From positions 1-32,130 of IMG/VR virus record IMGVR_UViG_3300025818_000103: a stretch of DNA of 32,130 bases, one strand, 5' to 3'. The notes beneath the pieces were generated by a model that saw nothing but the letters and a program-made list of their open reading frames with translations, made no database searches and was not told the origin of the DNA. Made by a program: the position numbers and the translations under genes. Of the stretch, positions 25,335 through 27,640 are shown in pieces. The stretch comes from a virus. Positions within the stretch are counted from its first letter, which is position 1, and every line of letters begins with the position of its first letter.

Positions 25335-25724
25335 CTATTCTAGGCGCCAAGTAATTCGTAGTTCGCCTCCAAGGGCCTTCACTGCATCGCTGCTGCCTTC
25401 TGCGGCTTCATGAATGATCATCACGGAAGGGACAATGGCATCAGGAAGTGGCGTGACTGTAGCTTCTGGAAATAACTCTTGAGCTTTTTCTGCAAGCGCA
25501 TTAGCTCGTTGTTCGCGCTCTTCGTTTTCCCATTGTTCTACAAGCGTTACCGCCTGCTTATCCACTTCTTCAATCGTGTATTGAACTTTCCATTCTTCCC
25601 AGAATGGACGAAGAGTGTCCATGATATTTTTGTAGCCTGGCGCAAATAGCAGCCACGGCCATCTCTTTGCTGCCCATATCCCTGCCTCGTAGCAAGAATA
25701 GTAAAAGAACGTTTCAGCGTTCAT
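25335..25724 (-). CDS. 129-residue protein of lysis cassette, unknown
   Basis: ATG 25724 overlaps the lysin stop by four bases (ATGA) and is preferred to TTG 25748. The product begins with an aromatic segment (ETFFYYSCYEAGIWAAKRW then PWLLFAPGY), continues with a charged helix (EEVDKQAVTLVEQWENEERE), and ends with a beta-type segment. It has no cleavable signal and no clear membrane span. Coupling to the lysin suggests a lysis or late role. Functions of similar size in this place include regulators and spanins, but there is no lipobox or N-terminal anchor to support a spanin. Confidence 0.5.
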   Translation of the reverse strand: MNAETFFYYSCYEAGIWAAKRWPWLLFAPGYKNIMDTLRPFWEEWKVQYTIEEVDKQAVTLVEQWENEEREQRANALAEKAQELFPEATVTPLPDAIVPSVMIIHEAAEGSSDAVKALGGELRITWRLE

Positions 25725-26665
25725 TGACTTTCTTGCCAAACTGAGCAAAATACAGTGCCTTGCTTGTATAAAGGCAAAATTTTATGAATAAGATCAAAAT
25801 TTCTACAGCGAACACAGCCAAAAGTTGGCACAAGCTTTTGATTGGGAGCCCATGCTCCAGGCCATCCAAGCGCACTGGCCCCGCCATGAATGCCTATGCC
25901 TGCTCGTCCATTGCCAGCTTCTTGATTTTCTAGTTCAATCAAATCGTAAAAAGCCCAGCCATAAGCCAAAAGCGTGCGATCATACATGCCTTTGTCGCCA
26001 TAAAGAGCATAATCGTTATACAACTTGCCCAGTTTGTATAATCCTGGAGGACAGTCTGATTTTTGTATTCTCCATTCATAATCACTATATTGTCCACGAG
26101 CTAAACAAGGAATCTCCCATAGAAGCTTCCCTTCAAAAGAAAATGCTTTCATGGTTTCTATGATGTCATTGACAATCAAATGGGAGTCGCCTTTCTTGAA
26201 GCCAAAGTCTTGCGGGCGCTTTTTAGGACCAACCATGGTAATTTTTGTGCTTTCAGGCGCATATTGTTTCATTAGCCTACTAAGCTTTGCTGGATAGTCA
26301 GGGTCTGTTGCATAGCCCTGTTCTTTCAGCATTCGCGCAGCAGCGTAACGATTAGGCGCATTATTCACGCCCTTGAATTGCTTATAGTCTTTGTACCAGC
26401 GTGTGACTAGGTATTCAACGCAAGCAGCGATGGAGGGAAAGTTAATAAAGCCAGTGTTAATTGTCACCCACTTTCCATCGTAAAACTCTTTCGTGCTTAC
26501 GCTAGAGCCATTCCCTTTGAGTCCTGCAAAATTGTTCTTTCCAGAGAAGTGTTTGCCAAAACCACTTTCCAGCGCCCATTGCGAGGCAACAAGCTCAGGA
26601 AAACGAGCCCCCACGCGACGAGCATGGGAGCTAATGCCTTCCCAGGAATTGGCAATGTCAGCCAT
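25721..26665 (-). CDS. two-domain lysin: glucosaminidase plus L,D-transpeptidase (YkuD)-like
   Basis: 314 residues, no signal peptide. Residues about 15-135 are a glucosaminidase domain (FlgJ/LytG type): ELVASQWALESGFGKHFSGK, with Glu33 as the expected catalytic acid, then NNFAGLKG. Residues about 158-314 resemble YkuD L,D-transpeptidases: PPGLYKLGK corresponds to the usual TPxGxF motif, and IHGG (His260) is followed 24 residues later by TFGCVRC (Cys284, Arg286), the T-x-GC-(V/I)-R site. The first domain should cut the glycan backbone; the second would act on stem peptides, either forming or breaking 3-3 links. It follows the holin by six bases and probably needs the holin for release. Confidence 0.83.
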   Translation of the reverse strand: MADIANSWEGISSHARRVGARFPELVASQWALESGFGKHFSGKNNFAGLKGNGSSVSTKEFYDGKWVTINTGFINFPSIAACVEYLVTRWYKDYKQFKGVNNAPNRYAAARMLKEQGYATDPDYPAKLSRLMKQYAPESTKITMVGPKKRPQDFGFKKGDSHLIVNDIIETMKAFSFEGKLLWEIPCLARGQYSDYEWRIQKSDCPPGLYKLGKLYNDYALYGDKGMYDRTLLAYGWAFYDLIELENQEAGNGRAGIGIHGGASALGWPGAWAPNQKLVPTFGCVRCRNFDLIHKILPLYKQGTVFCSVWQESQ

Positions 26666-26671
26666 GATGGC

Positions 26672-26824
26672 TTACTTTTTAGCGCTGCCCACGCGGAAGA
26701 TGGTTTGCAGACCATCAAGGATCAGTTGCAAAACGTTGTTGCTCTTCCAAGGCGAGTATTCAATGAGCTGGTCTAGGGCAGCAACGATGATGCCACCAAC
26801 GATAAACCATTCAACGGGATCCAC
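26672..26824 (-). CDS. 50-residue holin candidate
   Basis: GTG 26822-26824 to TAA 26672-26674. The product starts MDPVEWFIVGGIIVAALDQL, which is one membrane span, followed by IEYSPWKSNNVLQLILDGLQ and a short basic end (GSAKK). A small membrane protein with a basic tail, six bases ahead of a lysin, is the usual setting of a holin. A similar pattern (membrane segment, then an acidic-aromatic link, then SPLKSN-like) is known to me from short phage proteins. An in-frame stop lies eight codons upstream, so no longer start is possible. Shine-Dalgarno is not apparent. Confidence 0.6.
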   Translation of the reverse strand: MDPVEWFIVGGIIVAALDQLIEYSPWKSNNVLQLILDGLQTIFRVGSAKK

Positions 26825-26850: not shown

Positions 26851-27060
26851 CTAGCGACTGATTTCCAGCTCGCGCACGCGCACTTCCAAATTCTTAATGT
26901 TTTCCGTGAGGGTGCCAAGCTTTTCCGTGATATTTTCCACTTGTGAAGTGATCTTCACTTGCTGATGGCCAATGCTCATCATCATTCCCCCAGTTGCGAG
27001 AAGCATACCAGCAGTAATGCTTACAGCCAAATTTGCAAGCTTATCCTGCCATGATTCCAT
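26851..27060 (-). CDS. small anchored coiled-coil protein of lysis cassette
   Basis: 69 residues. A charged N-terminal end (MESWQDKLANL) leads to one membrane span (AVSITAGMLLATGGMMMSIG), and the rest is a heptad coiled coil (VENITEKLGTLTENIKNLEV). This shape, short cytosolic end, one span and outer coiled coil, resembles an inner-membrane spanin, though shorter than most, or a holin partner. It is the first gene of the lysis operon, 27 bases ahead of the holin candidate. A promoter candidate lies just upstream. Confidence 0.6.
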   Translation of the reverse strand: MESWQDKLANLAVSITAGMLLATGGMMMSIGHQQVKITSQVENITEKLGTLTENIKNLEVRVRELEISR

Positions 27061-27151: not shown

Positions 27152-27640
27152 ATGGGGATGAGAAATGGACCAGATGATCTTCTCCATTCACTCACTGAAT
27201 TACGCCCTGGCGAAGCTAAGCGCCGTTATCGCAAAAGCATCTTTGAAGACTTTCCAACTAAAGGACCATTTGGCCATTGTGCCTGTGCCTATTGCGGAGC
27301 GTGGGGCGAGAAACTGACCATTGATCACATTGTTCCTAAAAGCAAAGGCGGACCACACTTTGCAAAATGGAACAACATACCTTCGTGCTTGGATTGCAAT
27401 GCAGACAAGGGAAGCCTGTCATTGTTTGAATGGTGGAGGCCGCAAGAATTCTGGACGCAACAGCGAGAAGAAGCCTTGCTTGCTTGGGTGTATGCGCATA
27501 GTTTTGTCAGCGCCCACACTGAACTAGGTAGCTGGGAGCAATGGATGGAAGACACTCAGCGCATCTTGCCAGTGCATGAACAGCCAAAAGAAAAGGCAGC
27601 CTTTATGCCGCCTTCGTTAATTTTGAAGCTAGTTAGTTGA
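27152..27640 (+). CDS. HNH endonuclease
   Basis: 162 residues. A compact HNH domain is at residues 43-90: CAYCG with Cys45 and Cys48, LTIDHIVPKSKGG with Asp58-His59, WNNI with Asn74/75, and SCLDCN-x3-KG with Cys79 and Cys82. The two Cys pairs bind zinc and the His coordinates the metal in the active site. The domain nicks or cuts double-stranded DNA. It is a free-standing gene on the opposite strand to its neighbours, so it may be a homing-type mobile gene; no intron or split gene is next to it. Its end overlaps the DUF3310 gene by eight bases tail to tail. The ATG at 27158 is an alternative start. Confidence 0.85.
   Translation: MGMRNGPDDLLHSLTELRPGEAKRRYRKSIFEDFPTKGPFGHCACAYCGAWGEKLTIDHIVPKSKGGPHFAKWNNIPSCLDCNADKGSLSLFEWWRPQEFWTQQREEALLAWVYAHSFVSAHTELGSWEQWMEDTQRILPVHEQPKEKAAFMPPSLILKLVS

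Follow-up and report, generated by a model that had tools for sequence, protein, structure and literature searches.

YkuD enzymes, which share the L,D-transpeptidase fold, are known mainly as builders of the bacterial cell wall and as trimmers of its stem peptides. A full-length homologue of the lysin described here is gp063 of the isolated Synechococcus phage S-CBS4 (NC_016766), a protein annotated as 'endolysin' or 'N-acetylmuramidase' with its YkuD half unmentioned. In PhaLP, YkuD is one of the lytic domain classes, with 10 occurrences and a place among the peptidases, and the database includes 40 cyanophage endolysins with two catalytic domains (EAD–EAD); its text has the two-enzyme design in common with our lysin, names no protein that joins a GH73 glucosaminidase to YkuD and reports no activity for one (PMC8310338). 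A YkuD domain has also been reported in one human-gut phage endolysin (PMC13284279). Our searches of the open-access literature found no description of a GH73–YkuD lysin or of its activity, which is weak evidence of absence.

The lysin and its cassette in S-CBS4-like phages

The virus record analysed here (the window) is 32,130 bases long. Its plus strand carries tail genes, including the one for the tape measure protein, and its minus strand carries genes for an exonuclease, a dCTP deaminase and thymidylate synthase, a nucleotide-kinase-like gene, two small open reading frames (ORFs) and the lysin gene (Table 1). No Rfam families were found in the window. The lysin is 72.8% identical to S-CBS4 gp063 over 97%, and the two share the GH73–YkuD arrangement and differ by sequence divergence only. 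Gene order is also shared, with gp065, gp064 and gp063 corresponding to the two small ORFs and the lysin, and the downstream gene is common to both. The window virus is best explained as an S-CBS4-like siphovirus of picocyanobacteria. The first-pass annotation, made from the letters of the window, was not aware of a described lysin of this exact make-up. The make-up is not rare: besides the S-CBS4 counterpart (73% identity), the fusion is present in over 80 of the retrieved contigs, and both YkuD as a lytic class and two-enzyme cyanophage endolysins as a group are in PhaLP (PMC8310338). The architecture is thus not unique and, with S-CBS4, is already in public databases.

Table 1 Features of the lysis region in the window
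Feature	Position	Strand	Remarks
Conserved downstream gene	25335..25724	-	phrog_6464, function unassigned; probable ATG at 25724, overlapping the stop of the lysin gene
Lysin gene	25721..26665	-	314 aa; ATG start; stop 25721-25723; probable bicatalytic endolysin
YkuD-family (L,D-transpeptidase fold) domain	25724..26224	-	residues 148-314; from profiles of relatives and predicted fold
Cys284-Val285-Arg286, predicted nucleophile and flanking Arg	25808..25816	-	Cys and Arg invariant in 102/102
GWPGAW loop between His and Cys	25850..25867	-	residues 267-272; subfamily signature
His260, predicted catalytic base	25886..25888	-	His in all distinct domains (70 phage, 32 host-genome)
GH73 / PF01832 glucosaminidase domain	26252..26653	-	residues 5-138; profile and AtlA fold match
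Glu33, predicted GH73 catalytic acid	26567..26569	-	Glu in 62/62 distinct GH73 domains
50-aa small ORF	26672..26824	-	GTG start; one hydrophobic stretch; candidate holin-type; S-CBS4 gp064 homologue
69-aa ORF	26851..27060	-	likely transmembrane stretch and coiled coil; candidate holin- or spanin-like; S-CBS4 gp065 homologue

The full order of small ORF, small ORF, GH73, YkuD and downstream gene recurs in 78 loci, some of which are overlapping copies of one contig, and in most loci the lysin is immediately preceded by the 50-aa ORF. The lysin gene is a member of a conserved cassette of S-CBS4-like picocyanophages. The two small upstream proteins look like a holin/spanin pair. Searches of Pfam and PHROGs with both returned no informative family and no match that would identify holins; the 69-aa protein has a weak PHROG match to 'Rz-like spanin' (E 0.0024). 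An HNH endonuclease gene lies just upstream of the lysis genes at 27152-27640 on the plus strand, with gp066 as its S-CBS4 counterpart. In four other loci (L049:1938-2495 (-), L087, L098 and L147:1928-2485 (-)) the second small gene is separated from the lysin by an antisense ORF, which by eye resembles a NUMOD4-type HNH homing endonuclease.

An identical (100%) 314-aa lysin is present in two further contigs, and for pairs with computable dS the dN/dS is 0.06–0.13, which shows strong purifying selection on each of the halves, so the fusion is not a matter of chance. These identical copies in independent contigs also rule out an assembly artefact. A host chromosomal origin for the GH73–YkuD gene was rejected as well, as the host copies examined have GH24 or no glycosidase, and never GH73.

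All 314 residues are accounted for by the two domains, and in an AlphaFold2 model of the whole lysin (pLDDT 85.7) the first half resembles GH73 enzymes and the second half YkuD enzymes. The PF01832 profile matches residues 22-135 at 65.4 bits against a cut-off of 30.2 (E 1e-17), and AtlA (7qfu) superposes on residues 5-138 of the model (VIA Z 16.0, rmsd 2.0, 132 residues). Glu33, in the context ALESGFGKH, sits at the end of the second helix of the model. From the family, the predicted target of this half is the GlcNAc–MurNAc bond.

The whole lysin matches two PHROG lysis families (phrog_10051, 4e-55; phrog_3513, 3e-47), and we strongly infer a lytic role for it. By eye it has no signal peptide, so that a holin route to the periplasm is expected. 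A GH73 domain related to that of the lysin does lie within a 1337-aa baseplate-region protein of the cyanomyovirus S-BM3 (SBM3_00043, L109:409-4422), in line with a virion-associated entry enzyme rather than an endolysin for lysis. However, the lysin has a small gene of its own that adjoins two small putative membrane genes and lies on the other strand from the tail genes, and in three 73–77 kb relatives it is the sole PF01832 or PF00959 match, which leaves a role in entry highly improbable.

Fold and active site of the C-terminal half

The C-terminal half is recognizable mainly through its relatives. A Pfam search with the whole lysin gave no YkuD match up to E 1, and the C-terminal half alone reached 13.4 bits with PF03734, below the cut-off of 23.4 (E 0.12). 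With E values up to 10 allowed, however, 19 of 20 aligned relatives matched YkuD (best 1.3e-9), and S-CRM01 gp112 (3.3e-9), phage B23 gp319 (2e-8) and a host GH24–YkuD protein (2.8e-9) scored above the cut-off. The lysin's YkuD half is 62–63% identical to B23 gp319 and 51–53% identical to S-CRM01 gp112. Searches by sequence against solved structures were empty, in that YkuD alignments found nothing and S-CRM01 gp112 gave one chance match, so a fold search was required. The AlphaFold2 model of the domain (pLDDT 86.8, pTM 0.85) matched Bd1075 best (Z 12.2, rmsd 3.2, 132 residues), followed by YkuD (12.1), Csd6 (11.8) and Pgp2 (11.7), scores that differ by less than 1 and are thus tied, with no discrimination of reaction mode. 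Among the matches listed, nearly all were L,D-transpeptidases, YkuD or L,D-carboxypeptidases. We assign the window domain to YkuD because relatives 51–63% identical to it pass the cut-off and because its predicted fold matches YkuD enzymes.

The family motif, His-Gly followed by (S/T)-x-Gly-Cys-x-Arg, is present as H260-G261 and T281-F-G-C284-V-R286. Between its two parts, the GWPGAW loop stretches the His–Cys spacing to 24, more than in the motif given for L,D-transpeptidases and Tlde1 (PMC9638812). G267, W268, P269 and W272 of the loop are invariant in 102/102 domains, and G270 and A271 occur in 70/70 phage and 31/32 host domains. Other positions are less constrained: the residue before Gly-Cys is F282 in the window lysin and H, Y, M, W, F or L in relatives, and residue 258, two before His260, is Gly in the window lysin and Met in most relatives. 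On sequence and model together, the C-terminal half is a YkuD-family domain with intact active-site residues.

The first-pass annotation had read the protein as a glucosaminidase joined to a domain of L,D-transpeptidase fold and had named Glu33, His260 and Cys284-Val-Arg286 as its active sites. The first reading is borne out by the PF01832 match (E 1e-17) and by YkuD folds at Z about 12, and the residues are present as named and conserved in relatives. The YkuD profile match that it had looked to came out in part only, being absent for the lysin (none to E 1 for the whole protein, E 0.12 for the C-terminal half) and present by way of relatives.

The lysin has the fold and the His-Gly...Gly-Cys active site in common with Bacillus subtilis YkuD, Csd6, Pgp2, Bd1075 and Tlde1a. 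It differs from these YkuD-family enzymes in lacking LysM and NTF2 domains and (by eye) a signal peptide, in its fused glycosidase and in its GWPGAW insert. We rejected a Csd6-type L,D-carboxypeptidase, as there is no NTF2-like domain, R286 stands two after the Cys and G258 two before the His. The lysin also departs from the Tlde1 effectors (PF10908): in place of the motif H-x(14-17)-(S/T)HGC, 20 residues separate H260 from T281 and Phe replaces the His, and PF10908 was matched by only one of the 20 aligned members (E 0.053).

Partners of the YkuD module

The gene itself is one of a widespread cyanophage family, and the interest of the window lysin lies in the mobility of its YkuD module and in the reaction of that module. 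Six loci (L018, L020-L023 and L025) have, in the lysin slot, GH73 joined to a C39-like cysteine peptidase in place of YkuD; in L018, the one profile-tested among them, that half matches PF13529 (E 1.4e-8). The same holds for proteins of two isolated phages, Cyanophage PSS2 gp098 and Synechococcus phage S-EIVl AHV82130, whose GH73 half is like that of the window lysin (41% and 58% over the aligned stretches, respectively) and whose second half is C39-like and not YkuD. In three further contigs GH73 is missing, and a YkuD-only gene of 172 aa (L046:3013-3531, L048:2891-3409, L052:3001-3519) is flanked by the small upstream genes on one side and the downstream gene on the other. These contigs, which are 8–19 kb fragments, gave no PF01832 or PF00959 match; as they are incomplete, the phages in question may encode a different lysin in another part of their genomes.

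Other glycosidases also serve as partners. In L034, a GH19-type lysin gene (452-1138) is followed by a separate YkuD gene (1138-1650) with overlapping start and stop, and the YkuD protein is 91% identical to the window's YkuD domain. A PF00182 search of the phage contigs is uninformative, since it picked up no control and likewise missed this GH19-type gene. Phage B23 gp319 and S-CRM01 gp112/gp113 have the His, Cys and Arg and the GWPGAW loop of the window lysin and differ from it in the partner. In B23 the YkuD domain is fused with a GH19-type domain in reversed order; in S-CRM01, gp113 is GH24 and gp112 comprises an apparent GH24 end and then YkuD, so that the pair (L108:5234-6543) appears to be a GH24–YkuD lysin split into two frames.

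Members of the YkuD subfamily at about 50–58% identity are also found in Cyanobium, Aphanothece and Synechococcus genomes, either fused to GH24 (L112, L134) or as a separate protein with a different N-terminal region. YkuD adjoins tail-fibre-like and tail-lysozyme genes in L113 and lies near a major capsid gene in L124, and these phage genes indicate that some of the host-genome copies belong to prophages. In most of the loci whose gene context was examined, the YkuD module is accompanied by wall-lysis or phage genes. What is new here is that the module is mobile, with GH73, GH24, GH19 or tail-lysozyme-type enzymes as partners. YkuD thus recurs as an interchangeable phage-lysin part, in a position otherwise held by a peptidase, and the presence of GH73–YkuD, GH73–C39 and YkuD alone in one conserved slot provides a natural, built-in comparison.

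These arrangements also bear on whether the YkuD half acts as an enzyme at all. Binding domains of lysins are usually C-terminal (PMC8310338), and the half could in principle serve mainly for wall binding, with its stem-peptide groove holding GH73 on the substrate and catalysis being minor. We consider this very unlikely, as His, Cys and Arg are all invariant in relatives down to about 50% identity, YkuD proteins stand alone in the lysin slot and the other occupant of the C-terminal position is a catalytic domain (C39-like). The YkuD half is most likely the stem-peptide-attacking part of a bicatalytic endolysin.

Reaction of the YkuD half

We favour, as the probable reading, a bicatalytic endolysin in which GH73 cuts the glycan and YkuD attacks stem peptides, mostly by hydrolysis. 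After reaching the periplasm through the holin, the lysin would cut the glycan backbone at the GlcNAc–MurNAc bond with its GH73 half, and Cys284, activated by His260, would form a thioester with meso-DAP at the mDAP–D-Ala bond, both as expected from the respective families. Water would resolve most of the acyl-enzyme, and the half would then act as an L,D-carboxy/endopeptidase, shortening stems and undoing cross-links; alternatively, free D-amino acids could capture the acyl-enzyme and so disarm stems for repair.

The hydrolytic mode taken by itself is held with moderate confidence. Peptide-bond attack is indicated by the swap of YkuD with a C39-like peptidase in one slot, and YkuD alone in the lysin slot of three contigs was counted on the same side. 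So was structural coverage, which is 132–136 residues with Bd1075, Csd6 and Pgp2 as against about 115 with transpeptidases. In Tlde1a, mutation of the His before Gly-Cys lowered cross-linking and left exchange unaffected (PMC9638812); this cross-linking His is not conserved in the lysin family, which we also counted for hydrolysis. Other observations count against it. The residue two after the Cys is Arg in most L,D-transpeptidases and Ala in Csd6 and Pgp2 (PMC8938487), so that the invariant Arg286 is transpeptidase-like. In L,D-carboxypeptidases the D-Ala pocket has an aromatic residue, Trp158 in Csd6 (PMC10653827), which we place two before the catalytic His, where the lysin has Gly258 and thus no such residue. 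Finally, few YkuD enzymes act as L,D-endopeptidases (PMC12729407).

The same Arg, typical of transpeptidases (PMC8938487), would suit a true L,D-transpeptidase that exchanges D-amino acids or caps stems non-productively like the effector Tlde1a. The first-pass annotation had proposed either breakage of 3-3 or stem links or their exchange so as to block host repair. Replacement of D-Ala4 would deprive the wall of donor stems and block repair while GH73 cuts the glycan. Tlde1a (7uo3) matches the fold at Z 9.9 over 126 residues, and killing by such activity has precedent (PMC9638812). Exchange alone would not open the wall, however, and a YkuD domain that is swapped for a peptidase and stands by itself in the lysin slot fits poorly with it, as does the departure from the Tlde1 motif in both the His before Gly-Cys and the 14–17 spacing. 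We therefore regard exchange as unlikely and retain hydrolysis as the preferred mode.

Hydrolysis of mDAP–D-Ala within cross-links, if the YkuD half carries it out, would make this half a lytic L,D-endopeptidase, of which few are known in the family. A narrower form of this proposal is a specific L,D-endopeptidase that removes 3-3 cross-links of the host and so counters an armour of the wall. Six picocyanobacterial genomes examined had one to six YkuD matches each, and in five of the six further, stronger-scoring YkuD proteins of ordinary type were present, making 3-3 links in the host wall possible. Such an activity is known from LdtCd2 (PMC12729407), and in Escherichia coli L,D-cross-links shield cells from phage lytic transglycosylases, protecting against phages with lysins of that kind and not against those with lysozyme or endopeptidase lysins (PMC11390936). 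That study found muramidases, too, unaffected and did not include glucosaminidases (PMC11390936); with protection this selective by lysin type, a tie to the window lysin is conjecture only. A literature search on 3-3 cross-links in Synechococcus gave nothing useful. We consider specific removal of 3-3 links quite unlikely.

As a broader and tentative possibility, picocyanophages may use the mobile YkuD module as a dedicated stem-attacking lysin part, sometimes alone and perhaps against host L,D-cross-links. If so, a wall-building enzyme family has been turned lytic; and if the half hydrolyses mDAP–D-Ala in cross-links, it would provide a convenient means of testing whether phage lysis in cyanobacteria is influenced by L,D-cross-links.

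A GH24–YkuD gene of Aphanothece (L112:2442-4513) lies with an adjacent membrane/coiled-coil protein amid chromosomal-looking genes, among them by eye a catalase-peroxidase and transporters, and could be a domesticated lysis module. Similar GH24–YkuD genes were found in other Cyanobium-type genomes.
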